A stretch of DNA of 64,000 nt from the NCBI GenBank assembly GCA_028343615.1, contig JAOLZA010000001.1:51166-115165 (forward strand), read 5' to 3'. The notes beneath the pieces are model-generated. The model did not search any database. It was not told where the DNA came from and was given only the letters and a program-made list of their open reading frames with translations. The translations under genes were made by a program, and so were the position numbers. This document shows, one piece after another, positions 7,344 through 51,862 of the stretch. Numbering within the stretch: the first letter of the stretch is position 1; each line of letters begins with the position of its first letter. This DNA is from Verrucomicrobiota bacterium (lineage in GTDB: Bacteria; Verrucomicrobiota; Verrucomicrobiia; Limisphaerales; UBA1100).

Positions 7344-7344
7344 C

Positions 7345-20655: not shown

Positions 20656-20699
20656 ACGCGGTTAGCGGAGTTGTTAGAGCATCACCACGACACAAGGTG
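20656..20699 (+). pseudogene. Decayed tRNA-Val 5'-half remnant (old integration-site scar)
   Basis: ACGCGGTTAGCGGAGTTGTTAGAGCATCACCACGACAC versus tRNA-Val GCGCGGTTAGCTCAGTTGGTAGAGCATCACCTCGACAC: about 33/38 identical; upstream flank TTGAGCTTATCACCCGCTC..GTTTGGCACACA also resembles the flank of the 40129 copy. Confidence 0.7.
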
Positions 20700-21151: not shown

Positions 21152-23107
21152 ATGAACCGATATCTCCTCCCCAGTTCCCCTTTCAGAATCCTTTTTTGCA
21201 GCTTAATCTGCCTGGCTACAGTCCTCCTTCGCTCATCGGGGGAAGCAGCGGAAACGCACAGGATTATTTTGATTGATACCTCTTCAACCATGCGCTGGAA
21301 GCAGAATATAAATGCAATACCAAATAAAACTTTACGTGAAAGATCACGTATTGATGCCATTAAAAAACCGCTTAAGGCATACATTAAGACAAAGGCAAAA
21401 GCAGGCGACACTCTACGTATCTACACATTCGCTAAACCGGTTGAACTGCAACAGGAAGAAGAAAAAGGTATAATAGGAATAGCCAAAAATGTGTTTAAAA
21501 ACCAAAACACCCTTGTCCTCACATTTAGTAAAGCTAAATTAGAAGATGACCTTGAAGAGGCTGATGACTTTGTGGATAAGATGGACTTAATCGTCGGGAC
21601 TGGCCGCAGCCGCCCCACTCATCTATACGAGTCAATGGATAAAATCCTTGGTTTGGCAACGGGTTTAATAAAAGACGGCAAGAAGGTCTCAGTTTTGATC
21701 ATTAGCGATGGCGTGGATTCATCCGAAGGAAAGCCGTTTAAGGACATGGGTGCAGTGATGAAGAATCACAATGCGACAATTAAGAATTTATCAGGAAAGG
21801 TTTTCTGTAAAATAGTTAAGTTTAACTTATCTGATTCGGACAAGACTGCATTGGAAAAAGCTAAAATTGGAATTAAAGATGCTCGTAACCTAGAGGACGA
21901 GGAGGTGTTTGAACCAAAACCAGAACCGAAGATTGCTATTAAGGCGGCATTCGAGGTGCAACTAAACGAAAAGGCAGTTAAGGAAAGGGATGTGATCTGG
22001 GTGAACGAAAAGCCTTTAGTATTTACCCTTACAGACAAGACAATCGCGAAGAAAATGGATAAATTGCTAGAGGCGGACCAAAAAGACGAAAACCTTAATT
22101 ATGCATGGAGCTTCAACGAAAAGACAAAAAATAAACCAGATAAGAATCAGGGGCCCATTGATGTTCGACTCGGACCGGGTGATCACGAAATCAACCTCAC
22201 GGTAAATGAAATAACGAAAGGGGGGCTTGAGGATTCGGCTGAAACCCTGAATTTTACCATCAAAAAGGTGGCGGTTAACGCTGCCATAGTTAAAGCCAAT
22301 GCCGAGAAGCGCAGGGCAGTTCAGCAGGGGGAGGCGGTTGATTTCAAATTCGATTTCTTTGGCCCAGAAGGTGCGGAGATCGAGTGGCATTACGGAGATG
22401 GGGAAAAAGAGAAGGGAAAGAAAGGGGAGGGAAAGAAACATATTTATCAAGTGCCAAGCCCACCAGGAGCTCCCTACGAAGTGGTAGTTGAGATTACTTT
22501 GCCAAATGAAGAAGTAATAAAAAAACCGCTTGGAAGCGTTCAAGTGGCGATGCTAAATGCCCGCGCTGTGGCCAAACCCAATAATCCGTGGCCTGGAGAA
22601 GAGGTGACGTTCACTACGAGTGCAAAAAATGTGGATAGCGTGATCTGGAACGTTGATGGTGTCGAGATGGAGCCCAATGATTTGAATTTCGCTTTAACAC
22701 ACACCTTTGAAATGGAAGGCAAAGTGAGGGTGTTTGCGATGGTTAAGCAGAAGGGCATCGACAAACCGCTCTTGGCTGACGCAAACATCGTCGTTAAAGA
22801 CGTGCTCCCAAAAATAGTGGTGGACAATGCGAACCTCTTCGTTGGAGAGGAAACGAAATACACGGTTACACAAGCCAATAATGGCCAGCCTTTCCCGCCT
22901 GGCTTCAAGGTGGAAGTGGATCTGCCTGAGGGAGGCGAAGAAAAACCAGCTGAGATAATATTTTTTACCAAGGCAGCGAAGAAGCATGAGGTAAAGGCCA
23001 AGATTACTCCGAAAGGATCTAAAAAAACGTTCCTAAGCGAAGATGCTGCTATTTTAATAGTTAAAGACATCAAAATAAATATTGATGTTGAAAAAGCAAA
23101 GGAATAA
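21152..23107 (+). CDS. Secreted vWA-domain protein with C-terminal PKD/Ig-like domains (gene 1 of tubulin-like operon)
   Basis: Signal peptide, then RIILIDTSSTMRWKQN (MIDAS-like DxSxT), LIISDGVDSSEGK; PKD-like IEWHYGDGEKEKGKKGEGKKHIYQV. Confidence 0.85.
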   Translation: MNRYLLPSSPFRILFCSLICLATVLLRSSGEAAETHRIILIDTSSTMRWKQNINAIPNKTLRERSRIDAIKKPLKAYIKTKAKAGDTLRIYTFAKPVELQQEEEKGIIGIAKNVFKNQNTLVLTFSKAKLEDDLEEADDFVDKMDLIVGTGRSRPTHLYESMDKILGLATGLIKDGKKVSVLIISDGVDSSEGKPFKDMGAVMKNHNATIKNLSGKVFCKIVKFNLSDSDKTALEKAKIGIKDARNLEDEEVFEPKPEPKIAIKAAFEVQLNEKAVKERDVIWVNEKPLVFTLTDKTIAKKMDKLLEADQKDENLNYAWSFNEKTKNKPDKNQGPIDVRLGPGDHEINLTVNEITKGGLEDSAETLNFTIKKVAVNAAIVKANAEKRRAVQQGEAVDFKFDFFGPEGAEIEWHYGDGEKEKGKKGEGKKHIYQVPSPPGAPYEVVVEITLPNEEVIKKPLGSVQVAMLNARAVAKPNNPWPGEEVTFTTSAKNVDSVIWNVDGVEMEPNDLNFALTHTFEMEGKVRVFAMVKQKGIDKPLLADANIVVKDVLPKIVVDNANLFVGEETKYTVTQANNGQPFPPGFKVEVDLPEGGEEKPAEIIFFTKAAKKHEVKAKITPKGSKKTFLSEDAAILIVKDIKINIDVEKAKE

Positions 23108-23166
23108 CTATCCCGCCCCAATGACCTACCTGCCTACAAGCACCCACTCAACTCCTGCTTCTCCGA

Positions 23167-24798
23167 ATGTTGCTTAGGATTAGTATAACATGCGGTCTTT
23201 TATCCCTGGCACTTGCTGGGGTCGGGCAGACGATTGAGCCAACAGTGACCGTTCGCATCGGGGAAAGCATCACGTTTGCCAACAAGAGTGAGGCACCTGA
23301 AGGAACAACATGGCTCTGGACTTTTGGTGATGGCGATACGAGTAAGGAAAAGGAACCAACCCATAAATACGCAAAAGAGGGCATATATAAAGTCAGACTT
23401 ACTGCAAAAGTGCCTAACCTAGATCCCGTTCAATCGCGCGAACTGTTGGTTGAGGTCAAGAAGGCAACAGCATTCACACCTCCTTCCGAAAAAATTTATA
23501 TTGGACAGGAATTTCAATTTAAGAACCCAAACCCACCAAGGCCTGGTGAAACGTATAAGTGGCTTTTTGGAGATGGGAACTCAAGTGGGGAGCATTCACC
23601 TACGCATTATTATAAAACTCATGGCTCTAAATCATATACTTGGACGTTGACTGTTGGCGGCATCGCTCAGGTTTTTTCGGGCACAATTGAAATTCACCCA
23701 ATCACTCCCAAAGTATCATCAGATTCAACCACGGTAAATAAAGGGGATGAATTCCAGTTTAAGAATGACACCGAAGGTCCCCCAAACATGGAGTGGGAAT
23801 GGGATTTTGGAGATGATAGCCCAAAGAGTAACGAGAAAGAGCCATATCATGTCTACGAGAAAGATGGGGGATTTGAGGTTACCCTAACGGTGAAGGCGCC
23901 AAATGTAGGCCCCTTATATTCCAAGCTAAAAGTCATTGTAAAACCCGTTTTTACTAAGCCCGCTATCGGCAGCATCACCATCGATCGCAGCGAAATGGGA
24001 GCTGATGGTAATTATACCGCCAAAATTATCGTGGAGGCTACAGGCACCTATGAAAAATTGCAGCTGAAGGTTGATGGAGACCCCATAAGCGGCATTTCAC
24101 CATCCGAACCGCAGTCATCAGGTGATGCCGAGAAAGGAACTAATACCTTTAAGCACACCTTTAAGATAACCGTGCCCACGCCACCGACCTCCGTCACACA
24201 AGAACCCGTTGCGGAGAAGCTGAAGGTCACGGCCACAATCTTCCCTGACGATCCTGCTGATGAGAAAAAAGCCACTGGTTATGCCAAGACAGAAACACTG
24301 AATCTCACGTTGATTCCAAAAAAACCATGGTGGTTATTGTACGTTTATATTTTGGCCGGATGTATTTTGCTCGCCATTATAATCACGCTTGTGGTTCTGG
24401 CGAAACGCCCCGTGATTCCGGGCACAATTACCTTGAATGGAGCAGATCATTATTTAACCAGTTCCCCATTGGGCCCCAAGAAGGGCAAACTCGAAATAGA
24501 CTTGGGTAATTTGGATTCTGATTACGATGGATTTGTGATGACTGTATCGGCGGAGAAACGGAGCAACAGCACGCAACTCAGAATTAATTCGGCGATTAAT
24601 TCTAAGAACGGAGCTGAAGGGGAAGTAGCTGCCAATAGCGAATACTTCGATTTCGGGCGAGGGTTTCCCTGTGTCGAAGTGATGACCATTGAGTGGCCCC
24701 ATGAAGAGCGGGGAAGATTAAGTTTGATCTACGATACACATCAATCTGATAGCTATGACTATGGAGATGATCAGGATGATGACACATATGAATATTAA
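23167..24798 (+). CDS. PKD-repeat, single-pass membrane protein with acidic C-terminal tail (gene 2)
   Basis: Three PKD repeats (LWTFGDGDTSKEKEPTHKYAKEG; KWLFGDGNSSGEHSPTHYY; EWDFGDDSPKSNEKEPYHVYEKDG), TM segment PWWLLYVYILAGCILLAIIITLVVLA, C-terminal SYDYGDDQDDDTYEY. Confidence 0.88.
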   Translation: MLLRISITCGLLSLALAGVGQTIEPTVTVRIGESITFANKSEAPEGTTWLWTFGDGDTSKEKEPTHKYAKEGIYKVRLTAKVPNLDPVQSRELLVEVKKATAFTPPSEKIYIGQEFQFKNPNPPRPGETYKWLFGDGNSSGEHSPTHYYKTHGSKSYTWTLTVGGIAQVFSGTIEIHPITPKVSSDSTTVNKGDEFQFKNDTEGPPNMEWEWDFGDDSPKSNEKEPYHVYEKDGGFEVTLTVKAPNVGPLYSKLKVIVKPVFTKPAIGSITIDRSEMGADGNYTAKIIVEATGTYEKLQLKVDGDPISGISPSEPQSSGDAEKGTNTFKHTFKITVPTPPTSVTQEPVAEKLKVTATIFPDDPADEKKATGYAKTETLNLTLIPKKPWWLLYVYILAGCILLAIIITLVVLAKRPVIPGTITLNGADHYLTSSPLGPKKGKLEIDLGNLDSDYDGFVMTVSAEKRSNSTQLRINSAINSKNGAEGEVAANSEYFDFGRGFPCVEVMTIEWPHEERGRLSLIYDTHQSDSYDYGDDQDDDTYEY

Positions 24799-24816
24799 AG
24801 AGTAAAGAAATTAACT

Positions 24817-27800
24817 ATGAGCAGTAATATTGAAGCAAAAGAATATCCGTGCCTTCTGATTGGCATGGGAGGCACCGGTGTGAAGGTTTTGCAGAAACTC
24901 AAGACTCAATTCCTACAAAAGACACCGGGACTGATCGCTGAAAACGGTGGCAGCGTAATGTTTTTAGGAATTGATACCGAGCCTTTCGAGCGGTCTGTTA
25001 AACACAGACCTCTGAAGCAGGGTGAGTATGAGCCTATTGGATTGGATACAAATCCCAAGAAGTTTGTGGAGAATAACCTAAAGGCCGATGGAAACTTCGG
25101 TATTAAGACAGTTTGGCCTGAAGTCGATGGACAACCTTATATACTAAATCACTCGGCTCCGATTACCATGGGGGCCTCACAGAATCGCCTAATTGGGAGG
25201 ACGGCACTCTTCATCAGCGCCAAAGATGTTTTTTCAAAGATAAGGAAAACAATTGATGACTTCTTTCGTATGGAGAAAGTGAGTGAAGACGATTTTTTAG
25301 TTCCACAAGTGCATATTATTTCGTCGATTGCCGGCGGAACCGGATCCTCTCTTATTTTTGATGTTCCCTATCTGGTTAAGCTGGCGGCAAAGGCAGCGGA
25401 CAGACATGTCTATCAGACTGGCCATTTTGTTATGGCTGGAGCTTTTCAAGGAGTGCTGAAAGGAAACGAGCAACAAATGCGGACCAAGGCAAATACGTAT
25501 ACTTGCCTACGAGAGCTAGATAATCTCTACCGTAAAAACGCTGAAAATCAGGCGGGGCAGGGCCAACCATTGTGGGAAGTGCGCTATAATGCAGTAACCG
25601 GGACTATTGATGATGTCGGTGATCCTAAAGATATCGCTTTAGATGTTCCGATGGACTGGATAAACATCTATCACAACCAAAATGAGGAGAATATCGGGAT
25701 TACCAAGCCGGACGCCATGTACGATATTATTTCTCAAGCAATCTCCTATAGCATTAATGGCGGGATTAATGGGAAAATGTTGTCTGCAAATGATAATATA
25801 AAACAAAAAATCTCGAATTTGAGCTCCACCCACAAAGCCAAGCCATATTCCACGTTGGGGGTCTCGACGTTAGAGTTGCCGCTTGAGGGACTCCAAAAGT
25901 ATTTGGCTTACAGCTGGGCTGAGCAGTTGACCCGAAAGAAGGCGGATCATCCCTATCAACAACCCGAACATCAGGGCCGGGAGGGAGAGCAGATATGGCA
26001 TTTAATGCAACAATGGGAGTTGGAGCCTTTACAGAACATCGTGATACCATCCTGCCCTCTATTCAGGACTAATCCAGCTTCCGGGAAGTGGGAGGAAGTT
26101 GAAGGGGAAAAGGAAATACGCCAAAATTGGCCGAGACTGGCCGAGGGATTCGGCATAGCTAAATTCAAACATAATTTCCAACCGGACATCAACGAGCACA
26201 TTGATAAGTTTTATGACAGGAGGCTTGTGGACGGCAAAAAATTTTATGAGAAGGCGGAAATAGCTTTTGATAAATACCGTGACCAAGTGAAGGCGAACCA
26301 GAAAGAGCACGTTAGCAAAGTTAGAAAGGCTCTGAATGATGAATTAGCTTCATTGATTAATTACAAGCACAGTCTCTCTTCCGACAATCATGAAGAGGCG
26401 GTTTTGCGGAGCACGGATGCCTTTTCAGAGGCGGTGGATGATCTCCAGCGGGCATTGGGTCGGATCATCGTTGAAGTATCTGCTGAGCAGCAAAAACTGG
26501 AGTCGAAACAATCGGCTGCAGAAAGAAATGCTAATCCCGAAGGCGCGCTTAGGGAAAGTAAGGTCAGCGTTCTAGGTTTCGGTGGTCGTAGCGGCCAGAT
26601 TTCAGATTGGTCTGAAGCTGTCAAGCTGGCCATCACCAGTAAAGCCGGAGCCGAGCAGGCCCGGTTGCTCAAAGCAGCACTTGAAGAACTAAGGGAATAT
26701 CTGGGTGAAGAGATTAAGCTTAAGGTGGACAAGGCTGATAGCGAGATGACCCGATATGTTCAGGAAGCTAAAGGCAAGGCTGAGGATATTAAGAGTGAAG
26801 CGAAGCGGGATGAACGAGAGAAAGCCGTATCAGTATTTCTGATCAGGGCGGATCAGTTTCCCGCATTTGCGGCAACAAAACTTCCCAGCCTGGATCAAAG
26901 GGCCGAGGCAATTTGGCAAAAGACCGATCAACTTATCCGAGAGAAGATAAAGAAAGGAAGTAATACCCTCATTGAGACTTTAGCAGCCGGGCGGAAGCAT
27001 CTGATTCTTGGGGATGCGGATCTTGAAGCAGTATCGGGCTGTTTAGAGGAAGCATGTTTAGAAGCTGCAAGGGAGGAATTAGGCAACTTGAACTTCCAGC
27101 AATTTGTAAACGATGAGTTTCTGGATGTGGGCAAAAAAGAGGATTTCAGGAAACTCCTGGTTGAATTAGATAGAAAAGCCGCGCCGTGGCTCACCGCGGA
27201 TAGAGAGTTTCAGGCTGCAAATTTCACCGATGAGATAGAATGTTTGGACTATTTACTCTATCCGAGTGGTGCTGAAGATGTTGCCACAGTACTGGAGGAT
27301 TTTGTTGAAAGAGGAGATTTTCGGGAAGACCCTGACATAGTCAAAATGCCTGAAGGAGTTACTGAAGGAATTGTGCGGGTTTCGATGCGTTTCGGTTACA
27401 CCTTGGAATCCCTTGATTTCATGAATGCATTTAAAGAGTGTGAGAAATCGATGGTAGCAAACGCACCGAAGATTCGCAGGTCAATATTGAAGGACTATGA
27501 AGATACGCTTTGTCCTCTTGATGAGTCTTCAGGCCAGAGAACTATAATAAATCTGACGACAAAGGATTACACAAAATTTGCGCACACATTTATTCGGTCA
27601 CATTACTACGGTCTGATCGAACAGCAAATTGAAGCGGGCGAAGCAAGGTGGGTGTATATCAAGGAAGATGAGTATACGGGCAGAAAGGCCATCGATATCC
27701 CTTCCAAAAGTCATAAGGTTAACTTCGCCGCACCGGTGAACACGGCGGCTAGCGATATGGATTTTGAGATTCTTAAGGGAGTTTATAGGGATGCACGAAA

Positions 27801-28062
27801 TGATCCGAAATCTATCCTGAGAGTAGCCGCAATTATGGAAGATGAGTACAAAGAGTCCCTGATTCATAAAGAAAGAGAATTCCGTCAGGCCTGCGCACAG
27901 GATCCTGAGTTAAACGCCCTTTCCCCCGTGGAGTTGGACAGGCGGATGTTCGCCGAATATGCCGAGAAAAAAGTCAAAGAGATCGGGTATGCGAAGCGCC
28001 CTGCTGCAAAAATTGAGGAAGAATTCCTCACCGCGGTTATCCGATCTGAACTTGCTCGGTAG
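24817..28062 (+). CDS. Tubulin/FtsZ-like GTPase-fold protein (Tubulin_2-type), 1081 aa (gene 3)
   Basis: N-terminal LLIGMGGTGVKVLQKLK; FLGIDTEP; tubulin-signature-like IISSIAGGTGSSLIFDVPYLVK; long helical/coiled-coil C-terminal region. Confidence 0.82.
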   Translation: MSSNIEAKEYPCLLIGMGGTGVKVLQKLKTQFLQKTPGLIAENGGSVMFLGIDTEPFERSVKHRPLKQGEYEPIGLDTNPKKFVENNLKADGNFGIKTVWPEVDGQPYILNHSAPITMGASQNRLIGRTALFISAKDVFSKIRKTIDDFFRMEKVSEDDFLVPQVHIISSIAGGTGSSLIFDVPYLVKLAAKAADRHVYQTGHFVMAGAFQGVLKGNEQQMRTKANTYTCLRELDNLYRKNAENQAGQGQPLWEVRYNAVTGTIDDVGDPKDIALDVPMDWINIYHNQNEENIGITKPDAMYDIISQAISYSINGGINGKMLSANDNIKQKISNLSSTHKAKPYSTLGVSTLELPLEGLQKYLAYSWAEQLTRKKADHPYQQPEHQGREGEQIWHLMQQWELEPLQNIVIPSCPLFRTNPASGKWEEVEGEKEIRQNWPRLAEGFGIAKFKHNFQPDINEHIDKFYDRRLVDGKKFYEKAEIAFDKYRDQVKANQKEHVSKVRKALNDELASLINYKHSLSSDNHEEAVLRSTDAFSEAVDDLQRALGRIIVEVSAEQQKLESKQSAAERNANPEGALRESKVSVLGFGGRSGQISDWSEAVKLAITSKAGAEQARLLKAALEELREYLGEEIKLKVDKADSEMTRYVQEAKGKAEDIKSEAKRDEREKAVSVFLIRADQFPAFAATKLPSLDQRAEAIWQKTDQLIREKIKKGSNTLIETLAAGRKHLILGDADLEAVSGCLEEACLEAAREELGNLNFQQFVNDEFLDVGKKEDFRKLLVELDRKAAPWLTADREFQAANFTDEIECLDYLLYPSGAEDVATVLEDFVERGDFREDPDIVKMPEGVTEGIVRVSMRFGYTLESLDFMNAFKECEKSMVANAPKIRRSILKDYEDTLCPLDESSGQRTIINLTTKDYTKFAHTFIRSHYYGLIEQQIEAGEARWVYIKEDEYTGRKAIDIPSKSHKVNFAAPVNTAASDMDFEILKGVYRDARNDPKSILRVAAIMEDEYKESLIHKEREFRQACAQDPELNALSPVELDRRMFAEYAEKKVKEIGYAKRPAAKIEEEFLTAVIRSELAR

Positions 28063-28093
28063 CTTATTGTGTCTCGGACGGAAATCCAAATTC

Positions 28094-30733
28094 ATGGTTT
28101 TTAGCCCTACAGTTGTCTTCTGCCCTCATCAGGAGGTTGCAAATGCGTTACATACAATTGAGTATGGGTTGGAGGCAGACCCACCTTGGGGCCGGGTGAC
28201 AGGCTGGATTGGGCCAGTGCCGGATAATTTTTTCCTTAACGAAAACCATCCTGTTTTAGGAGAAAGTGAAGGCCGGGTTTTGCCAAGCATCCTGAGCCAA
28301 GAGGCGGCTGGTGATTTCTACTTCTCACTGCAGAATAGGCTAGAAATGGATTTAGCCAAGCTGGGTCACGAGTCCTCGATTGGCACCTTCAGAATCCTTA
28401 TTCTTCTGGAAGGAAATGAGAAGGGCCTGGCTCTTGACGATGCACAGTTGAGCGATTTTCGGGAATCGATTACGAATTTTTGTGTATCCTCAGAAATACC
28501 AGAAGCACTTTCATTCGAAGTACTTTTTGTTCTCCTGCAGCACAAAGGGTTGTCTAAGAAGACCATTGACTTCATCGAAGATATTAACGTTTTAGTAACG
28601 AATGATAATGGGACCAGGCAACCCAGATGTCACGCCCACGGTGATGGAGCCAATCCCCCTAAGGTGCTTTTGGCAACGACTTGGGATCAGTATAACCGAC
28701 CGACCACAACTGAAGAATTGAGGTATCTCGGCGCAACAATTGCGCACCTGTCTTTTGTGGAGAGCAATTGGAAAAACTCTCTTCTAAGCGGTTCGGGCTG
28801 GATCGACGGACGTATTAGTCCTGCGGTGATCGGACTACGGGCATTTTTCTGGGAAAGGATTCGGGCGATCGATTTGTCGAGGAAGAAACATTTCAAAGAA
28901 TGTTTTGTTCAGAAATGGTTGGATCAAGGTTGGGCTAATCCGGAACATGATCTCCCAAAAGTATCATACGGTGGGGAAATTAAGATCGAGGGCGGTGCAC
29001 AGCCCGACAGATGGGGCTGCCTTCACACAGATTGGAACCGTGAATTGTGGCGGCGCCTAAAAATGCTGAAAAAAGAAGAGGGGCAGGCAACGGACGAATT
29101 AGAAAAGGCTACGAGTATTGATAAGTACCGGCATAGTCTTCAAAAACAAGTATTTGGAAAAATTAACCGAGAGCTCACCCGGGAGATGGAGGAGGCCCGT
29201 GAAAAAGGAAAACCCAAGGGGAAAGCTGTCCGGCGAATACTCAATGTAATCACTCTGCTTACTAAGAATGAAATCAGCGACAAATTTAAGCTACTTCATG
29301 AGGCAGCCGACCAAGTGAAGGTGGGATTTGATGCGGATTTTGATGAATTCCATAAATCGATGATCAGTTCGGGCACTGGGCTCACATTGCTGAAGACGCG
29401 TTACCGGGATCTAGCAAATGAATTAGAAGGGCAATCTGCAGAGTTTGCTCATGATAAACGCACCGATTTTAAAACAACGGAGATCATGCGATTTGCCCTA
29501 GGGGCAATCGTAGCGCAATTGGAAAGGCCGCATGGCAGAACATTGAAAACCAGTTGGGCACTGATGTTCGCCTTTTTTGCAGTTATCTTCTTCAACTTAT
29601 TCGAAATGCTAAGGCTGAGTGATACAATTATTAGCCCGATCCTCGGGATAGCTGCCCCTATGGCCTTGTTTTATTTAATAGCAAACTCTAGATATGATGG
29701 TCGGCTGAAACGAATATTTTCCGGAATAGGATGGGGGTGGTTGTTATTATTCCCGCCCACTGGCTATGGGGTTTATTTTGCATTGACGAATTATCCCATT
29801 GGTAATTTCGCCGTTCATATTTCAGCCGGGATGGCTGTGGCTCTTTGCTTTTCGCTGGGACTAGTGGCTTATCACTTGAGAACGACACTGCATGATTACG
29901 AACGGAGAAAAAATAGATTCACCAGCGAAATAAAAATGATGGTCGAAGCCATTGTTAACCATAAGATGGTATCCTCGATAAGGGAAGTAATGAGCCACGC
30001 CAGAGAGGTGCTCCAATCAAAAGCTGATGAAATGGAGAAGCAGATTGAGGAGGCGAACCAACAGCTGGAGACGTATTACAACTGTCCTGAAGAATATCCT
30101 GAGGCTCCGACTGACCTGGAACTGGTTACTATGCTGAATCCGGCTACTTTTCCTCAGACCAGAGACACGTGGGAAAAACATGTCAGAAATGAGACAATTG
30201 GATGGGCGGAAGAATTTTGGCGCAACGACGAACAAATACCCGACCATTTGGGACATGGAGATTGGTGGTATAGGGTTTTGCGCCGAATTTCGGACAACTC
30301 ACACCGGAGGTTTTTACTGAATGGATATAGCCGTGGTTCGGATCATAATCTAGGCAAGGATGAGAGGGGGTTTGAGTTGTGGCATTATATGAAACAGCAA
30401 AAATTCAGAAAGCAGCCCCCTCTTCAGGCATATATCGAAAGGGCAATAATAGCCTCACATTATTTCGATAATGTGGGTGAGCAATTCTGGGCTTTCCACC
30501 CTGAGGGGAAAATCGCGGAGGAACCGGAGTTTGGAATCAAGGACCATTACGAGTCAAATTATCAATCCAGAGGAACCAAGCGGAGCATAACAGACTTTTA
30601 TAACCCAAGTCTGGTCTGTTTTCTTTATTTGGCCCATGGATATACTTGGGATGCGATTCAGCAAGCAACGGGGGATGTGGAAGGGGTACATGTGAACATT
30701 CCCGAGGAGAAGGTTCCTGAAGAAGGATTATAA
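28094..30733 (+). CDS. Large multi-domain membrane protein of unknown function (gene 4)
   Basis: Start at ATG 28094, 31 nt after previous stop; TM cluster SWALMFAFFAVIFFNLFEMLRL / ILGIAAPMALFYLIA / GWLLLFPPTGYGVYFAL / ISAGMAVALCFSLGLVAYHL, then coiled coil. Confidence 0.78.
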   Translation: MVFSPTVVFCPHQEVANALHTIEYGLEADPPWGRVTGWIGPVPDNFFLNENHPVLGESEGRVLPSILSQEAAGDFYFSLQNRLEMDLAKLGHESSIGTFRILILLEGNEKGLALDDAQLSDFRESITNFCVSSEIPEALSFEVLFVLLQHKGLSKKTIDFIEDINVLVTNDNGTRQPRCHAHGDGANPPKVLLATTWDQYNRPTTTEELRYLGATIAHLSFVESNWKNSLLSGSGWIDGRISPAVIGLRAFFWERIRAIDLSRKKHFKECFVQKWLDQGWANPEHDLPKVSYGGEIKIEGGAQPDRWGCLHTDWNRELWRRLKMLKKEEGQATDELEKATSIDKYRHSLQKQVFGKINRELTREMEEAREKGKPKGKAVRRILNVITLLTKNEISDKFKLLHEAADQVKVGFDADFDEFHKSMISSGTGLTLLKTRYRDLANELEGQSAEFAHDKRTDFKTTEIMRFALGAIVAQLERPHGRTLKTSWALMFAFFAVIFFNLFEMLRLSDTIISPILGIAAPMALFYLIANSRYDGRLKRIFSGIGWGWLLLFPPTGYGVYFALTNYPIGNFAVHISAGMAVALCFSLGLVAYHLRTTLHDYERRKNRFTSEIKMMVEAIVNHKMVSSIREVMSHAREVLQSKADEMEKQIEEANQQLETYYNCPEEYPEAPTDLELVTMLNPATFPQTRDTWEKHVRNETIGWAEEFWRNDEQIPDHLGHGDWWYRVLRRISDNSHRRFLLNGYSRGSDHNLGKDERGFELWHYMKQQKFRKQPPLQAYIERAIIASHYFDNVGEQFWAFHPEGKIAEEPEFGIKDHYESNYQSRGTKRSITDFYNPSLVCFLYLAHGYTWDAIQQATGDVEGVHVNIPEEKVPEEGL

Positions 30734-32823
30734 TGAACCAGTATTTTTCGAAGCCAAAGAAACGTTTCTCGGATGATTTGCATGAATTTGATGTAACTCG
30801 GCTGTCGGGCTGGAGTGCTGTCAGGATTTATTCTTATTTGATCTTCTTTAGCTTATTATCGATTGGATTAATCCAAAATGTAGAAATATTACAGAAATGG
30901 GGTGGCTGGGTTGAGAGAATTATGTGGTCCTTGCTTGTCCTAATTCCTCTGCTGACCTTCTTGGTGTATTACTTCGCTAGAAAACAAAGCACGGTTTTGG
31001 ATTTTGCCGACTATTTCCCACGATACCATACACTCGAGCATTATCGAGGAATCATCCTTGGCGCTGGGTTCTTTGCGATAGCAATGAGTATACTACCCTT
31101 CATCCTTGGCAAGGAGGCGAAAGGCCATGATTCGGTATACTTTGGACTGATTCTTATATTGGCACTGACAACTACTTTATTTTGGTACATTTGCACGCAG
31201 TCCAAAACGGAGGTTCCAAAGGAAATAGAGAGTGCACGTCGGTGTTCCTGGACTCCAGAGGAGGAGGAGGAACTGGAATTGCGGTTAAAACGCGAACTTC
31301 AAGAACTCGATGAAAAAATGGAAATTATGGTTGAGAATAGGGGGAGCCATCCGTGTATGAAATGCAACGGGACGGGAGTGCTTTCTGAGAGAAAAGAAAA
31401 TGAAGAGGATTCGGAAGAGGATTCGGAAGAGCAAGCGCCTCCGGTTCTTGAAGAAACCGCATGTGAGGAATGCACAGGAACGGGGATGTTAGAGTGGCTT
31501 AACAAAGCTCAAAAGCAATCATATGATAATGCAAAAAGACAGAGAGATAGATGTGTTGCCGAATTGCGTAAGTTAGATGATTCAGGTGATTGGAAGCAAA
31601 TGTCTCTAGAGGAGGTTCGGTTCCCATGGTTCACCGAACATGGTCATCCGAATGGAGATCCGGTCCCTGAACTGCACTTTCAAGCCAGCGCGAATGGGTT
31701 GGGAACATTTCAGGATAAGAACAAAGAGCTATTCACAGAATGGCAGAGCGTCTTGGAAGATAAGGATGCGGCGGATACCTACAACGATAATATTGGGAAT
31801 TGGGGCAAGACTTATGTCAGCCATAAAATCCATGCTGCTGAGTCCCGTGAGGTGAAAACCTTGTCCTACCACCTATATCAGGTTGTACGTAACAACAGCC
31901 TCTCAGAGTTACAACAAATAGAGCTTTGCTTGGCAGCCGTTCAATCCCTTGTTAAGCAAAGGGAAGATATCCCTCCCCCGGAATTGGATGTATTTGTTAA
32001 ACCGGATGAGGCAGCTGCTGATCTGCCCAAACTCGACAGAGTCAAGGCTGTGGCTACTACACTTTGGGAAGTAGTTGGCTTCTGGCGAGATCCAATGTCA
32101 AAAACTGAGGAAGATTCTTTATGGGAGAGCATAAAGAAATGGCATATTAATATTCAGAGAACCGATGATGACGACGAAGACGGAGAGATTGAGGAAATTG
32201 TGAATTACGTAGGAAAACTTGAAGAATGGTTTAAGGAGAATAAGCCGGAAAGCGAATGGCCCGGGGGAGAATATAAACAAATAGTAACGGAAAGCCTTAC
32301 GCCCAAAGAACACGCTGCACTACTAAGAAATTTAGAACAATTAAATGACATTAACATAGAAAAAAATACTGAAAAACATAATCACTTTAGTATTCGTATC
32401 AGTGATCTAAGGCATGCTTTTGATAAATTCAACAATCTTCGGGCTGGCAAGAACACTTTCCAGCCAAATCATTATCCGAAATTTCCGACTGAAACCTTGA
32501 TCCAGATGGAAGGAACCGTTGATGATGGCGCAATACTATTGGCGGCTTTACTGCATGATTGTGGCTATAAGGTGCGACTCTATCGCTCAACTTATACAGA
32601 TATCGAAAAAGGAGAAATCAATCGCATGGGAGTTGCTGTTGAAATTGAGGGATCGAAAGACACAAGGTTAGTTGAGCCGAGCCGTGTTCACAAAGGAATG
32701 GTGTATTGCGAAGCAACACCCAAAAGATGGTATTGCAATGATCTGGATATAACAGAGAGACGCCCTAAGGGAATAGACATCAATCCTCCAAAGATAAAAG
32801 AAGAATCAAGTTTTCAGTTCTAG
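30733..32823 (+). CDS. Membrane protein with DnaJ-type CxxCxGxG zinc modules and degenerate transglutaminase-like C-terminus (gene 5)
   Basis: Four N-terminal TM segments; CMKCNGTG and CEECTGTG; C-terminal PTETLIQMEGTVDDGAILLAALLHDCGYKVRLY. Confidence 0.8.
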   Translation: MNQYFSKPKKRFSDDLHEFDVTRLSGWSAVRIYSYLIFFSLLSIGLIQNVEILQKWGGWVERIMWSLLVLIPLLTFLVYYFARKQSTVLDFADYFPRYHTLEHYRGIILGAGFFAIAMSILPFILGKEAKGHDSVYFGLILILALTTTLFWYICTQSKTEVPKEIESARRCSWTPEEEEELELRLKRELQELDEKMEIMVENRGSHPCMKCNGTGVLSERKENEEDSEEDSEEQAPPVLEETACEECTGTGMLEWLNKAQKQSYDNAKRQRDRCVAELRKLDDSGDWKQMSLEEVRFPWFTEHGHPNGDPVPELHFQASANGLGTFQDKNKELFTEWQSVLEDKDAADTYNDNIGNWGKTYVSHKIHAAESREVKTLSYHLYQVVRNNSLSELQQIELCLAAVQSLVKQREDIPPPELDVFVKPDEAAADLPKLDRVKAVATTLWEVVGFWRDPMSKTEEDSLWESIKKWHINIQRTDDDDEDGEIEEIVNYVGKLEEWFKENKPESEWPGGEYKQIVTESLTPKEHAALLRNLEQLNDINIEKNTEKHNHFSIRISDLRHAFDKFNNLRAGKNTFQPNHYPKFPTETLIQMEGTVDDGAILLAALLHDCGYKVRLYRSTYTDIEKGEINRMGVAVEIEGSKDTRLVEPSRVHKGMVYCEATPKRWYCNDLDITERRPKGIDINPPKIKEESSFQF

Positions 32824-33484: not shown

Positions 33485-33605
33485 CCATGCGCTTCTTTAC
33501 CGAAAAGGAACGCGCAAATTCAAGACCGAGGGCTCAAAATACGGCGACAACACCGCCTACAGCTTCAACGGAAACTTGAATGTTGGAGCCCCCTGTCCAC
33601 TTGAA
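33485..33605 (+). pseudogene. Decayed fragment of gamma-carbonic anhydrase C-terminus
   Basis: MRFFTEKERANSRPRAQ (frameshift) KYGDNTAYSFNGNLNVGAPCPLE versus intact IRPLTPEERADLKPWAQKYVDNSAYCLKHKLNVGVPLAT at 20480-20596; DNA similarity continues into the downstream flank. Confidence 0.78.
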
Positions 33606-33780
33606 CTTCCGGTTGAGGCTACCAATCGCCGAAGTGTTTGGTTTGGAGCAGAAGATTTTAAATTTCTTTAGAATTAGAATTGACTCATTTCATTACCATG
33701 GAACGCGCGAATGAAAGACTTACTATCTACGTCAGAGTAAAGTTGACTCGGAAAGGGTTGGGCATTCACAATTTCATCCA

Positions 33781-36717
33781 ATGAATCGCGCGTTATCGAC
33801 AATCCTCGTTATTTCGCCAATGGTCGCCTTGTTGGCGGCTGCCGAGGAACCCACCACAGAGGGACTGAATTTCTTCGAGACCAAGATTCGCCCTGTTTTG
33901 GTAGAACGCTGCTACAAGTGCCATTCCGCCGAGGCGCTTAGGCAGAATAAACTGAAGGGCGAACTGCAGCTTGATACCCGCGAGGCGGTGCTTAAAGGAG
34001 GGGAGACAGGGCCGGCGATCGTGCCGGGCGACGTGAAGGCGAGCCTGTTACTTCAGGCGATCCGCCACGAGAAGTCGCTCGAGATGCCGCCTAAGAGCAA
34101 GTTGCCAAAAGAGGTTATTGCCGATTTTGAAAAGTGGGTGAAGATCGGAGCACCTGACCCCCGCGATGGCAAGGCGGCAGAGATAGCCAAAGAAAAGATC
34201 AATATTGAAACCGGGCGGAAGTTTTGGTCGTTTCAACCACTCCGCAAGGTTGCGCCTCCACAAGTAAAGGACTCCGATTGGGTACGCACGGATATCGATC
34301 GATTCATCTTGGCGCTGCTCGAGGATAAGGGGCTAAAGCCTAACGGTGAGGCAAATCGTCGCTCCCTCATCCGCCGGTCGTATTTTGATTTGTGGGGATT
34401 GCCTCCCGAACCGGCCGAGGTGGAAGCATTCGCCAACGATACCTCTACGGATGCCTACGAGCGACTGATCGACAGGCTGATCGCCGGTCAGCACTACGGC
34501 GAACGCTGGGCCCGCCACTGGCTCGACTTGGCGAGGTTTGCAGAGAGCAACGGTTTCGCCTTTGATAGGGATAGGCCTGCGGCTTTCCACTACCGCGATT
34601 TCGTCATCAAGGCCCTCAACGAGGATATGCCCTACGACCGGTTCGTGCGGCTACAAATTGCCGGAGATCAGATCGGGCCGGATGACTACACAAGCCAGGC
34701 CGCGACCGGTTTTCTCGCCGCCGGGCCATTTACCTCGCAGCAAACGCAGAAAGAGCGGGAACGAAGCCGCTACGAACAGTTGGATGATGTCGTTGGCACG
34801 ATCGGAACGTCGATGTTGGGGTTAACTATCGGATGTGCTCGCTGTCACGACCATAAATTTGACCCTCTGCCGATCCGTGATTACTACCGGCTAACTGCGG
34901 CATTTGCCGAAACCGGGTTCCAAGATTTTGATTACGATCCCGATCCCGCCGCGACGAAGGCCGCCAAAGATAAGTTCGACAAGGCGCATAAGCCGTTTGT
35001 AGATGCTCGGGTAAAGTTCGAAAAGGAGCATCTACCGAAACGGCTGGATGATTGGTTGAATACTAAAGCGGAGCCACCACCGCTCGAGAAACTGGGAGTC
35101 TGGCAGGTGATCGGACCTTTCAAAGCTGCTGATTTCAAGATGGCTTACAATAAGGCGTTCGCACCAGAGAAAGAAGTGAATCTTGAAAAGACCTACGAAG
35201 ACCTGAAGTGGACGCCCCAGCCCGATTGGAAAGACGGACAAATCCACAATACGCTGACCGGAAACAATAGCGCAAACTACCTCTTTCGAACAATTGAGGT
35301 GGCCAAGAAGTCGCCGTTGGAGATCTCGTTGGGACGCGATGATGCGATCAAGGTGTTTCTCAATGGGAACCAGGTGTTGGCCAAAGAGGTGACCGGAGGC
35401 GTGGCGGCAGATCAGGACAAGGTCACGCTCAAACTGAATGCGGGCACTAACAAACTACTGGTGAAGATCATCAATGCCTCCGGACCGTCAGGGTTCTACT
35501 TCAGCACGCGACCGAACATTCCTAAGAATATCCAAGACATCTTAAAGCTGGCCGCAGACAAGCGGAACGACGGACAAAAACAGGCGTTACTGAAATGGTA
35601 TTCACCGCGTGACTCGGATTGGGCCAGCCTTAATCAAGCTGAACAGGAGCATCTCAAAGAACAGCCCAAGCCAAAAATCACTAAGGTATTCGCCGCTCGG
35701 AAGAACGGCGCGACTTACAATTTTGGCGCCGACACGCGCAAGGTGTACTTCCTCGCCCGCGGCAATTCGAATGCGAAGCAGGGGTTAGCATCCCCCGGTT
35801 TCCTCAGGGTGCTGACCTCGGTCAACACGCCGGAGGATCGGTGGCTTGTATCCACGGAGGCCGCCAACGCGAAGCCCGTCTCCCGCCACCCCCGCGCGGC
35901 TGTGGCGGACTGGCTGACAGATCACCAAAAAGGAGCCGGCCATCTGCTCGCTCGGGTAATCGTGAACCGCCTTTGGCAGCACCACATGGGGCGCGGCATC
36001 GTGACGACCCCCAGCGATTTCGGTAAGCAAGGGGTCGCTCCTTCGCACCCCGAGCTCTTAGATTTTCTTGCCTCGGAGCTGATACGCGGTGGCTGGAAAC
36101 TTAAACCAATCCACAAGTTGATCATGTTGAGTGCGGTGTACCGGCAGTCGGGCGAAAGCAACCCGGCAGCAGCAAAGGCGGATCCTGACAACCAGCTCAT
36201 GTGGCGGCGAAGGGCGGTGCGATTGGATGCCGAAGCTATCCGCGATACGCTTCTGGCCGTGAGTGGGACGCTGGACAAAACGATGTTCGGAAAGGGGACG
36301 CTGAATCAGGCGATCCCTCGGCGGAGCATCTACCTCACTGTGAAACGCGGCAATCTGATTCCGATGCTGCAGCTATTTGACGCGCCTGATGCCATCCAGA
36401 GCATCGGGCACCGTGATATCACCACTGTCCCGCCGCAGGCGCTAGCGCTGATGAATTCACCGCTCGCACGGCAGTTGGCGGAGAAGTTTGCCCAGCGTAT
36501 TCAATCCACACCGTCGATGGCGCCGGAGAAGGTGGTTGATACGGCCTATGCTACAGCATTATCCCGTCCGCCGACCGATGCCGAAAGGCAACAGATGGTC
36601 GACTTTATCAATAAGCAGACCGCGTCCTACGGTGAAGATGGCAAGGCGATGGAGCGTGCCGTGGCTGATTTCTGCCAGCTTATGCTCTGCCTCAACGAGT
36701 TTATTTTTATCGATTAG
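33781..36717 (+). CDS. DUF1549/DUF1553 protein with N-terminal Planctomycete-type cytochrome c domain
   Basis: IRPVLVERCYKCHSAEA; HWLDLARFAESNGFAFDRDRPAAFHYRDFVIKALNEDMPYDRFVRLQIAGD; LARVIVNRLWQHHMGRGIVTTPSDFG. Confidence 0.94.
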   Translation: MNRALSTILVISPMVALLAAAEEPTTEGLNFFETKIRPVLVERCYKCHSAEALRQNKLKGELQLDTREAVLKGGETGPAIVPGDVKASLLLQAIRHEKSLEMPPKSKLPKEVIADFEKWVKIGAPDPRDGKAAEIAKEKINIETGRKFWSFQPLRKVAPPQVKDSDWVRTDIDRFILALLEDKGLKPNGEANRRSLIRRSYFDLWGLPPEPAEVEAFANDTSTDAYERLIDRLIAGQHYGERWARHWLDLARFAESNGFAFDRDRPAAFHYRDFVIKALNEDMPYDRFVRLQIAGDQIGPDDYTSQAATGFLAAGPFTSQQTQKERERSRYEQLDDVVGTIGTSMLGLTIGCARCHDHKFDPLPIRDYYRLTAAFAETGFQDFDYDPDPAATKAAKDKFDKAHKPFVDARVKFEKEHLPKRLDDWLNTKAEPPPLEKLGVWQVIGPFKAADFKMAYNKAFAPEKEVNLEKTYEDLKWTPQPDWKDGQIHNTLTGNNSANYLFRTIEVAKKSPLEISLGRDDAIKVFLNGNQVLAKEVTGGVAADQDKVTLKLNAGTNKLLVKIINASGPSGFYFSTRPNIPKNIQDILKLAADKRNDGQKQALLKWYSPRDSDWASLNQAEQEHLKEQPKPKITKVFAARKNGATYNFGADTRKVYFLARGNSNAKQGLASPGFLRVLTSVNTPEDRWLVSTEAANAKPVSRHPRAAVADWLTDHQKGAGHLLARVIVNRLWQHHMGRGIVTTPSDFGKQGVAPSHPELLDFLASELIRGGWKLKPIHKLIMLSAVYRQSGESNPAAAKADPDNQLMWRRRAVRLDAEAIRDTLLAVSGTLDKTMFGKGTLNQAIPRRSIYLTVKRGNLIPMLQLFDAPDAIQSIGHRDITTVPPQALALMNSPLARQLAEKFAQRIQSTPSMAPEKVVDTAYATALSRPPTDAERQQMVDFINKQTASYGEDGKAMERAVADFCQLMLCLNEFIFID

Positions 36718-36722
36718 CTAAG

Positions 36723-38162
36723 ATGCAAAAACCATTCAATTTTCATTCACGCCGGGCCTTCCTAAAAAATGCAGGACTCGGATGTGGCTCTCTCGCCCTG
36801 ACTGGCCTGCTTGGTGAACAGGGGCTGCTTTCCGCCGCCGCGGCCACTCCCAACAAACAGTCGGCGCAGACGCAAGGACCACACTTCGCGCCTAAAGCAA
36901 AGTCAATCATCTGGCTTTTCATGCCCGGCAGCCCATCGCAGATGGACACGTTCGACTACAAGCCGGAGTTACAAAAACGCAATGGGATGAAACTTGAAGG
37001 GGCTGACCCTAAGACCGGATTCTTCACCACCAGCGGCAAAGTGTTGAAGTCGCCGTTCGCCTTCAAACAACACGGTCAGTCCGGTGCGTGGGTTTCGGAG
37101 ATATTCCCGCACATGGCGCAGCACGTCGATGATCAGGCATTCATCTACTCGTGCTTTTCGCAGTCGAACAACCATACCCCGGCAATGCTGGAGATGAACT
37201 CCGGCATGTTCCTTCAGGGGCGCCCGTGCATGGGGTCGTGGCTTAACTACGGCCTGGGAAGCGAGAACAAGAACCTGCCCGGATTTGTGGTCCTGCACGG
37301 TGCGATGCCGCGTGGCGGTAAGCCGATCTGGTCACCAGGATTTCTGCCCAAAGTGTATCAGCCGACCTCCATTGATGGACAAAAGCCCATCGCCGACCTG
37401 GCGCGCCTGAAGGGCATGACCGACGGGCAGCAGCGGGCGCAGCTCGATATTCTTAAGGAGATGAACCGCAAGCATCAGGAACTACGACCGCACGAGGCTG
37501 ATCTGGCAGCGAGGCTTGAGTCATTTGAGTTGGCCTACCGGATGCAGACAGCTGCCCCCGAAGCGATGGATCTCACTAAGGAAACCGAGCTCACCCACAA
37601 GGCCTACGGTACGGACCAGAAAGAGACGCAACTCGTAGCCAAGCAGTGCATTACAGCGCGCCGCCTGATCGAACGCGGCGTGCGCTTTGTTCAGTTATAT
37701 GCAGGGACAAATGGCGGAGGAGGCGGTGTGGCCGACGTGCCTTGGGATGGCCACAACGATATTGGGGCCAATCACCGTATCGCCGCCAAGAGCGTCGACC
37801 AGCCGATAGGTGCCCTGCTCGCCGACCTGAAGGCACGCGGGATGCTTGACGAAACGCTGGTAGTTTGGGGTGGGGAGTTTGGGCGGACTTCAGATGCGCA
37901 GGGCAGTTTGGGACGGGATCACAACCCTCACGCCTTCACCATGTGGATGGCGGGCGGCGGAATCAAAGGCGGCGTGCAATATGGCGCCAGTGATGAATTC
38001 GGATACAAGGCGATCGAAAACCGTGTCAGCGTAAATGACCTGCACGCTACTATCTTACAGCTGATGGGCATCGACCATAAGAGGCTGACGTATCGGTTCA
38101 ACGGGCGTGACTACCGGCTTACCGATGTTGCGGGAGAGGTCATCGATGCACTTCTTGCCTGA
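36723..38162 (+). CDS. DUF1501 family (sulfatase-like) protein
   Basis: SRRAFLKNAGLGCGSLALTGLL leader; WLFMPGSPSQMDTFDYKPEL; VVWGGEFGRTSDAQGSLGRDHNPHAFTMWMAGGGIKGG. Confidence 0.95.
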   Translation: MQKPFNFHSRRAFLKNAGLGCGSLALTGLLGEQGLLSAAAATPNKQSAQTQGPHFAPKAKSIIWLFMPGSPSQMDTFDYKPELQKRNGMKLEGADPKTGFFTTSGKVLKSPFAFKQHGQSGAWVSEIFPHMAQHVDDQAFIYSCFSQSNNHTPAMLEMNSGMFLQGRPCMGSWLNYGLGSENKNLPGFVVLHGAMPRGGKPIWSPGFLPKVYQPTSIDGQKPIADLARLKGMTDGQQRAQLDILKEMNRKHQELRPHEADLAARLESFELAYRMQTAAPEAMDLTKETELTHKAYGTDQKETQLVAKQCITARRLIERGVRFVQLYAGTNGGGGGVADVPWDGHNDIGANHRIAAKSVDQPIGALLADLKARGMLDETLVVWGGEFGRTSDAQGSLGRDHNPHAFTMWMAGGGIKGGVQYGASDEFGYKAIENRVSVNDLHATILQLMGIDHKRLTYRFNGRDYRLTDVAGEVIDALLA

Positions 38163-40128: not shown

Positions 40129-40166
40129 GCGCGGTTAGCTCAGTTGGTAGAGCATCACCTCGACAC
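40129..40166 (+). pseudogene. tRNA-Val 5' half (positions 1-38), att-like repeat at left end of island
   Basis: GCGCGGTTAGCTCAGTTGGTAGAGCATCACCTCGACAC is identical to 51787-51824 and diverges after the anticodon loop. Confidence 0.9.
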
Positions 40167-40592: not shown

Positions 40593-41321
40593 ATGAAGAA
40601 AGGCCCAAAGAAAAAAGCCCTCGCATACCTGAGGCGTAGCAATGGGGTTAACGATTCAGCGAGCGAAAAAAGGCAACGCGAAGCCATTGATCGTGCCGCC
40701 GCCCATGCTGGGTATGTGATCGAGGAAGACGGTTACTTTTTTGACGCTAAGATTTCAGGTGCTTCCGAATTGGAAGATCGCCCTGCACTTCAAAAACTCT
40801 TTGCTATTTTAGAGGACGGTGATTACGACACGATTTTTTGTGAAGCGATTGACCGTATCGCCCGATCCACGCTTTGCGGCCAAGTCTTATGCAACCAGCT
40901 AAAAGAGATGGGCGTGACTGCCTACGATTCCTTTGGGAAAAACTTAACCACATCGACGGACGGTGAGCAGAATCTTATTCGCGATATTATGCTCTGCATT
41001 GCATCTTACGAGCGTGAGAAAATCGTTGCTCGTATGTTGCACGGGCGTAAGCGGAAGAAGAAGGATTTGAAGGCCAAGGCCAGAAAGAACAACCGCATCT
41101 CCACCAAGGTCGAAGGTAAAAAAGCTTTTGGCGAAGACAGCAAGATCGAGCAAGCCATAATCAAAAAAATCAAAACCTTGCGGAAGTCCAAGTCAAAAAA
41201 ACACAGCACTTGGGGCGGCATTGCCTTAGCTTTAAATGAGTCTGGGTTTACCAATAGGGCAGGGAACCCTTGGCGAATGGCGAACGTTCGCAAGATCGGG
41301 ATGGCCAATGGTTTGAATTAG
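40593..41321 (+). CDS. Serine recombinase/resolvase-family protein
   Basis: ALAYLRRSNGVNDSASEKRQREAIDRAAAHAGY..FFDAKISGASELEDRPALQKLFAIL; DRIARST; MLCIASYEREKIVARM. Confidence 0.88.
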   Translation: MKKGPKKKALAYLRRSNGVNDSASEKRQREAIDRAAAHAGYVIEEDGYFFDAKISGASELEDRPALQKLFAILEDGDYDTIFCEAIDRIARSTLCGQVLCNQLKEMGVTAYDSFGKNLTTSTDGEQNLIRDIMLCIASYEREKIVARMLHGRKRKKKDLKAKARKNNRISTKVEGKKAFGEDSKIEQAIIKKIKTLRKSKSKKHSTWGGIALALNESGFTNRAGNPWRMANVRKIGMANGLN

Positions 41322-44381: not shown

Positions 44382-45011
44382 CTACTTTGTTGGCGGGGCG
44401 CATTTGCTACAAGCCCCGTAAGCCTTGATGGCTCTTTGTAGAGGAATTGGAATTTTAGACTTAGACAAAAAACGGCAACCTTCGCGGTGGTACTTCTTGC
44501 CAGTCGCAGTCACAAAGACGGCGTTATTAGCTGCGGGGTTGTTTGGCTGCTTCACTGCCCCGCCTCTTCTGAAATCCCACGGAGCAATGGCATTCTTATC
44601 TGCCCAAAGACCCGTTTTAGCTGCCCGTGCTTTTAGCTCTGATTGAGCTATACCTTTGTCCTTTGAATATTGCTTGTAATGCCAAGCCATACCCTCGGTT
44701 ACCATCTCAGCATTGATGTGGCGTTTACTTATGTAAACTTCGTCAAGAATTCTTTTGTATCGGTCATGCTCAGCCCAGCGGATGGTAACCACCTTCCCAA
44801 AAACCTTGTTTGAAAGTGCCTGTTTAGATTTTACGCCGAAAGCTTGGTGGCCCTCTGGGGCGTCTATGTGCATTAACCTTATTTTATGCTGCGTACTTTG
44901 GCGCAGTACCGTGATGGTGTCACCGTCGGTTACGCCAACCACCTTGGCGGTGAACTCGAAAGCTCCGACTAGGAGCGGTGAAAGAAGTATTAAAGATAAA
45001 AGTTTTCTCAT
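44382..45011 (-). CDS. Secreted thermonuclease (SNase family)
   Basis: Signal peptide; VVGVTDGDTITVL..HKIRLMHIDAPEG..GKVVTIRWAEHDRYKRILDEVYISKRHINAEMVTEGMAWHYKQYS. Confidence 0.92.
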   Translation of the reverse strand: MRKLLSLILLSPLLVGAFEFTAKVVGVTDGDTITVLRQSTQHKIRLMHIDAPEGHQAFGVKSKQALSNKVFGKVVTIRWAEHDRYKRILDEVYISKRHINAEMVTEGMAWHYKQYSKDKGIAQSELKARAAKTGLWADKNAIAPWDFRRGGAVKQPNNPAANNAVFVTATGKKYHREGCRFLSKSKIPIPLQRAIKAYGACSKCAPPTK

Positions 45012-51786: not shown

Positions 51787-51862
51787 GCGCGGTTAGCTCA
51801 GTTGGTAGAGCATCACCTCGACACGGTGGAGGTCATTGGTTCGAGCCCAATACCGCGCACCA
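51787..51862 (+). tRNA. tRNA-Val (anticodon GAC), CCA encoded
   Basis: GCGCGGT/ACCGCGC acceptor, GCTC/GAGC D-stem, TCACC/GGTGG anticodon stem, ATTGG/CCAAT T-stem, standard 5-nt variable loop, ACCA 3' end. Confidence 0.95.

Follow-up and report, generated by a model that had tools for sequence, protein, structure and literature searches.

The window analysed here is a 64,000-nucleotide (nt) stretch from the genome of an uncultured Verrucomicrobiota bacterium (contig JAOLZA010000001.1, positions 51,166 to 115,165), and its positions 21152-32823 hold an operon of five genes that includes a relative of tubulin and FtsZ. We propose that this operon is a mobile accessory envelope machine of the FtsZl1-vWA kind, that is, a surface-sensing, membrane-attached device based on a tubulin-like protein, and we give this reading a probability of about 0.45. 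On its predicted domain content, with a vWA gene and membrane proteins (genes 1, 2, 4 and 5) around the tubulin relative, the operon is of the FtsZl1-vWA kind, and it appears to be a distinct sub-type of this known kind, one that usually has a further membrane-spanning partner. The first-pass annotation had presented the system as undescribed. This claim fails, as FtsZl1-vWA operons have been in print since 2010 (PMC2875224) and related tubulin-vWA conflict systems since 2020 (PMC7159879). The operon and its genes, with transmembrane segments abbreviated as TM and open reading frames as ORF, are as follows.

21152-32823, + strand throughout: operon of five genes (ORF calls; spacings of 59, 18, 31 and -1 nt)
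21152..23107, +: gene 1, secreted, vWA and PKD/Ig-like domains, putative outer half of a split receptor (Pfam, signal peptide)
23167..24798, +: gene 2, signal peptide, three PKD domains, one TM, cytosolic tail, putative membrane half of the split receptor
24817..28062, +: gene 3, FtsZl1/Tubulin_2, predicted tubulin fold, long coiled coil, C-terminal alpha/beta region
28094..30733, +: gene 4, 879 amino acids (aa), 4-TM block at about 484-590 followed by a coiled coil; in the third-protein position, putative membrane partner of gene 3
30733..32823, +: gene 5, 4 TM, DnaJ-like CxxCxGxG pair, predicted C-terminal pseudo-transglutaminase

The ORFs are mechanical calls and the TM segments derive from hydropathy. 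The spacings agree with those first reported (59, 18, 31 and about 0 nt). None of the five genes contains a P-loop, and Pfam finds no GTPase, kinase or OmpA domain among them. Scans of the five genes with PADLOC, NCBIfam and PHROGs returned nothing informative, and genes 4 and 5 have no confident family in these three collections or in Pfam. A search of viral contigs likewise revealed no relatives of genes 4 and 5. Promoter- and terminator-like sites are no more frequent than in shuffled sequence.

Gene 3 and the FtsZl1 family

The N-terminus of gene 3 matches Tubulin_2 (PF13809) with an E-value of 2.7e-41 and 142.5 bits against a cut-off of 27, and the full model is covered. Both glycine motifs noticed in the first annotation are present, as GMGGTG at residues 16-21 and AGGTGSS at 172-178, and G18, G19, G21 and the GGTGS are invariant across 31 relatives. 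An AlphaFold2 model built on the alignment with those 31 relatives has a confidence (pLDDT) mostly of 70-90 in the N-terminal domain, with some loops lower. When this model is compared with the PDB using Foldseek, the top 50 matches are all FtsZ, CetZ, TubZ or PhuZ (probability 0.99-1.00, best E-value 1.2e-4), with no other fold among them. Taken together, the family match and the modelled fold indicate that gene 3 is a tubulin/FtsZ relative, as the first-pass annotation had expected. The model continues with helices at 458-668 and a mixed C-terminal region, which is the architecture published for FtsZl1.

Gene 3 shares the N-terminal fold and the GGTG-type nucleotide loop with classical FtsZ and with CetZ/TubZ, but differs from them by the long helical region after the tubulin domain and by its operon with surface proteins. 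We rejected an identity as the cell-division FtsZ, as the PF00091 match of gene 3 is below threshold (E = 0.23) and a separate classical PF00091 FtsZ is encoded elsewhere in the same genome (G000:C106). PADLOC matches to Cas10 and ZorA were likewise rejected; they are weak and lie past the tubulin domain in the helical region. A search of solved structures for FtsZl1 gave chance matches only, mostly to helical or coiled-coil chains. No close relative of gene 3 was found in 58 near genomes, on plasmids or, using peptide patterns, in genome contigs. One weak match, to a relative with 27.5 % identity (1e-8), is located at 6940-7950 of GenBank MT836542.1, a 9.8-kb contig from human faeces that is filed as Bacteriophage sp. 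and may be a cellular fragment.

The family has been described before. Makarova & Koonin 2010 (PMC2875224) reports FtsZl1 together with a vWA partner, membrane proteins, GTPases, kinases, OmpA proteins and a DnaJ-type Cys-rich domain, and proposes membrane remodelling as its role. The window resembles these operons in the family of gene 3 with its coiled coil and C-terminal region, in the vWA partner, in the several TM proteins, in the DnaJ-type cysteine motif and in the predicted membrane association. The GTPase, kinase and OmpA genes, which are frequent but not universal in the published operons and are not needed for membership, are absent from the window. The window also differs by its two-gene receptor with PKD repeats and its pseudo-transglutaminase protein; neither PKD nor transglutaminase is mentioned in the main text of PMC2875224. 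In a 2023 phylogeny, Tubulin_2 proteins appear only as a divergent group at the root (PMC9871819).

A second group of described systems is the GAP1-N2 systems of Kaur et al. 2020 (PMC7159879), which are GTPase-centred, combine one or two tubulin-coiled-coil genes with extracellular vWA proteins and are read as conflict systems. They resemble the window in the tubulin domain with a C-terminal coiled coil and in the extracellular vWA proteins with TM, and those of Firmicutes have two tubulin genes. They differ in having a TRAFAC GTPase and a GAP1 component, neither of which is found in the window. As none of the five genes has a P-loop, we do not file the window as a GAP1-N2 system. The tubulin theme is described by Kaur et al. 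as restricted to Firmicutes and Actinobacteria, and that paper mentions neither a PKD receptor nor a membrane-embedded tubulin relative.

The two-gene receptor and the census of FtsZl1 loci

Gene 1, whose ORF is open from 21122, has a signal peptide and matches VWA_2 with E = 0.0096 and PKD_4 with 5e-6 (26.8 bits versus a cut-off of 27). Both Pfam matches are weak, and the description of gene 1 as a secreted vWA and PKD protein is retained. The metal ion-dependent adhesion site (MIDAS) of the vWA domain is near-intact, with the motif DTSSTM in which a threonine replaces the last serine of DxSxS, and the vWA identity is backed by the position upstream of FtsZl1 that such proteins occupy in relatives. 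Gene 2 has three PKD domains (Pfam 1.8e-33), a single TM near residue 386 and, on the cytosolic side, a tail of about 130 aa. The tail had been annotated as acidic; by inspection it is mostly an ordinary-looking domain with a short acidic end. What is one vWA, PKD and TM protein in relatives is divided over two proteins, genes 1 and 2, in the window.

We read the neighbourhoods of Tubulin_2/FtsZl1 genes in the order and phylum of the window and in the phyla of G708 (L028, Chloroflexi) and G711 (L043, Gemmataceae), with 80 named loci. Many of the sampled genomes are incomplete, and the genome of the window is itself 59 % complete. Tubulin_2 is rare near the window, being found in 12 of the 390 sampled genomes of the phylum (5/320 for the order) and in none of six congeners, where no gene 3 relative was found either.

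A recurrent layout emerges from these loci. A secreted vWA protein, often with PKD domains, has a C-terminal TM, mostly followed by a cytosolic domain of about 110-250 aa, and lies upstream of FtsZl1. FtsZl1 is often followed by a large third ORF, mostly TM-bearing, and then often by a small protein with 3-4 TM. In many phyla there are loci where the vWA(+PKD)-TM protein immediately precedes FtsZl1. The first-pass annotation had coupled secreted vWA/PKD partners across the membrane to the tubulin-like protein, and this co-occurrence recurs widely. Several relatives have three to five PKD repeats in the receptor; in many others PKD is swapped for other Ig-like domains or is absent. In L161 the receptor carries FHA as its cytosolic domain (1.5e-7, exceeding the cut-off), and in a few others this domain is by inspection FHA-like.

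In L190, from a planctomycete (the phylum of the Gemmataceae record), a vWA protein with five PKD repeats and a TM is followed by FtsZl1, a 752-aa protein with a TM pair in its middle and a 4-TM transglutaminase protein, which is the order found in the window. Gene 2 matches the vWA-PKD-TM protein of L190 at 1.2e-29, a similarity driven by the PKD repeats. At L169:5299-15840, a vWA domain, TM helices, PD40 repeats, a TM and FtsZl1 form a single-frame fusion. The 3513-aa ORF spans a scaffold gap of 100 N and hence only its second half was used. A further FtsZl1 gene lies upstream and is linked to the fusion only across the 100-N gap.

Loci of the vWA type cluster on the FtsZl1 tree, requiring 6 changes compared to 19.2 in shuffles. 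Gene 3 falls on the vWA-type side of a fully supported split (100/99) from Bacteroidota and other genomes of its own class (families f42, f43), as a long branch with an uncertain exact placement. In the same tree L098, a record named as Verrucomicrobia, is closely grouped with a same-class genome, in keeping with a Verrucomicrobiota origin of the window. A same-class genome of family f42 has two tandem FtsZl1 genes with multi-TM neighbours and no vWA gene (L022:5791-12182). In a record titled Bacteroidales (L079:800-4357), an N-terminal protein-kinase-like domain is fused to FtsZl1; kinase-FtsZl1 fusions are reported for Planctomycetes in PMC2875224.

Third-position proteins and gene 5

Hydropathy places four TM in a block at about 484-590 of gene 4, with a coiled coil after it, in agreement with the 4-TM coiled-coil protein first annotated. 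It fits the layout of the third protein, being directly after FtsZl1, longer than 650 aa and with a TM region in the middle and a coiled coil following. We counted third ORFs of at least 650 aa in loci with room downstream and found one in 17 of 21 vWA-type loci compared to 11 of 81 other FtsZl1 loci. The third ORF has a mid-protein TM in 13/21 and 5/81, respectively.

In other lineages this position is filled by second tubulin-like proteins. In several groups the third protein is a remote relative of FtsZl1, with E-values from 3e-18 (L028b/L161b) through 6e-7 (L162b) to 1.2e-6 (L168b), and a profile of eight third proteins from the phylum of G708 matches FtsZl1 at 3e-9 over 302 columns. As a control, the best of 120 unrelated ORFs reached 8.5e-4. 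L161b and L028b even exceed the Pfam cut-off for Tubulin_2. Inspection shows that L028b, L161b and the Chloroflexota group have lost the GGTGS loop. We found no mention of tubulin-like third proteins without GGTGS in the accessible literature; the 2010 supplementary lists may include such proteins, unrecognised as tubulin relatives.

The partner in the sister systems being a second tubulin-like protein without GGTGS, gene 4 may be a very diverged one, to which we give about one chance in two. Gene 4 itself yielded no usable tubulin signal by phmmer, hhalign or combined profiles, and 201 of 499 background ORFs outscored it against the third-protein profile. Single-sequence AlphaFold2 gave a low-confidence model (pLDDT 38) that shows no tubulin fold but proves nothing. 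These results speak for the alternative that gene 4 is an unrelated membrane scaffold that shares only its operon place with the third proteins of other lineages, and we rate this at even odds. Against it, the place, length, mid-protein TM block and coiled coil of gene 4 match those of third proteins of which many are tubulin-like, and L190b, L114b and L115b occupy the same position and are just as invisible by sequence. It is conceivable, although we regard it as doubtful, that the nucleotide-binding FtsZl1 and a membrane-embedded, loop-less tubulin relative (gene 4 and the third proteins) form a hetero-assembly under external control by the vWA/PKD receptor. If true, this would be a cytoskeleton-like device with a direct reading of the cell surface.

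Gene 5 was annotated as a 4-TM protein with zinc modules and a transglutaminase-like tail. All three parts are found. The protein has four TM, two CxxCxGxG motifs resemble those of DnaJ (E = 0.04), and the C-terminus is transglutaminase-like (DUF553, E = 0.0036). We consider this C-terminal stretch to be real because it matches the intact transglutaminase that L190 encodes at the corresponding place of its operon (2e-5 pairwise and 4.5e-4 among all neighbours, over the transglutaminase part). The tail lacks the catalytic residues, a revision of the earlier description: the cysteine is replaced by valine (GTVDD compared to GDCED in L190 and L198) and by inspection no histidine is present at the aligned site (INRMGVAV compared to LHGAVGLAV). 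With both residues gone, the tail of gene 5 is predicted to be a pseudoenzyme, whose likeness to transglutaminase-like proteins (PF01841, PF04473) is at the level of the fold. At L198:101-5092, a 1663-aa protein with several TM combines a STAND-like NTPase with a transglutaminase that keeps its cysteine, near FtsZl1 and a vWA gene.

Possible function and the genomic island

In the proposed envelope machine, genes 1 and 2 would form a joint receptor whose extracellular vWA head and PKD stalk are connected through a single TM helix to a cytosolic domain. Gene 3 would be a nucleotide-binding protein of the tubulin superfamily on the cytosolic side of the membrane, gene 4 a membrane-embedded partner keeping it there, and gene 5 a 4-TM accessory subunit that probably uses its inactive transglutaminase fold to bind, rather than cut, a peptide or wall ligand. 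Binding or clustering of the receptor outside may change the cytosolic tail, and the changed tail may in turn nucleate or release the assembly of gene 3 at a patch of membrane that gene 4 organises. Such an assembly might reshape or permeabilise the membrane or cluster the receptor, so that the outputs could include membrane remodelling, cell killing and receptor clustering. We lean towards an accessory and possibly conflict-related role, which is favoured by the island location and the patchy spread.

Several points weigh against this proposal. The VWA_2 match of gene 1 lies under the Pfam curated cut-off, and in the tail of gene 2 neither a known domain nor any similarity to the tails of other receptors can be detected. 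PKD repeats are common, and PKD similarity between receptors is therefore little proof by itself. Gene 3 is a long branch with a best identity of about 27 % to any relative, and for gene 4 the absent tubulin signal and the low-confidence model count in the same direction. Full-text literature searching found no experimental work on the Tubulin_2/FtsZl1 family.

One alternative is a conflict or immunity system in which the receptor senses an attacker, a neighbour or a change caused by infection, and the tubulin-like proteins respond by assembling, so that the cell is killed or walled off. It is compatible with the envelope machine, from which it differs in the output, and we think it unlikely. 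The location on an island at a tRNA gene, the absence from congeners, the patchy spread (12/390 genomes in the phylum), the published reading of tubulin-vWA loci as conflict systems (PMC7159879) and the STAND-like NTPase with transglutaminase beside FtsZl1 in L198 all speak for it. Yet the five genes contain no toxin, nuclease or pore domain, nothing in PADLOC and no Kaur-type GTPase, and the extracellular part fits surface contact better than sensing of phage DNA. A surface adhesion or predation apparatus, with genes 1 and 2 as adhesins patched by the tubulin-like protein without regulated membrane remodelling, would suit vWA and PKD as typical adhesion modules and the three to five PKD repeats of several relatives, but is quite improbable given that receptors retain a conserved TM and cytosolic domain beyond the needs of an anchor, that PKD is replaced or missing in many relatives, and that the multi-TM and transglutaminase parts of gene 5 are left unexplained.

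Few branches of the tubulin superfamily are as diverged as FtsZl1, for which we found no solved structure or tested function 16 years after its description. The census yields a concrete arrangement of an upstream receptor, a presumably active tubulin and, in a large subset, a downstream membrane-spanning and loop-less tubulin relative. If the proposed arrangement is true, it represents a tubulin system cued from the cell surface.

The first-pass annotation also placed the operon on an island, and empty sites in congeners bear this out. The following features delimit it.

20657..20693, +: partial tRNA-Val copy, possible attachment site, left island end (89 % over 37 nt when compared with the intact gene at 51787)
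33486..33641, +: degenerate copy of the hexapeptide-repeat gene found upstream, covering its 3' end and closing the operon segment on the right
40129..40166, +: another partial tRNA-Val copy, internal to the composite island (38/38 nt identical to the 5' part of the tRNA-Val at 51787)
51787..51862, +: intact tRNA-Val (GAC), bounding the composite island on the right

In congener G005 (L214), the hexapeptide-repeat gene, tRNA-Val and the gene at 51922-53085 are directly consecutive, and therefore about 20.7-51.8 kb of the window is extra relative to G005. In congener G001 (L217), the hexapeptide gene joins the PSCyt gene (33781) directly, so that G001 lacks only the operon segment (about 20.65-33.48 kb). 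The two partial tRNA-Val copies and the intact tRNA look like the attachment sites of a composite island spanning 20657-51862. The G+C content is 45-47 % over the operon compared to 51-61 % over the first 20 kb of the window.

The same hotspot contains a PSCyt/PSD1 and DUF1501 gene pair at 33781-38162. As its PSCyt gene adjoins the hexapeptide gene without the operon in G001, this pair looks like a separately gained unit. A second unit of the island carries a serine recombinase (Resolvase, PF00239) at 40593-41321, adjoining the partial tRNA copy at 40129-40166, and, at 44382-45011, a protein resembling staphylococcal nuclease (PF00565) that also matches a PADLOC model at 4.8e-10.

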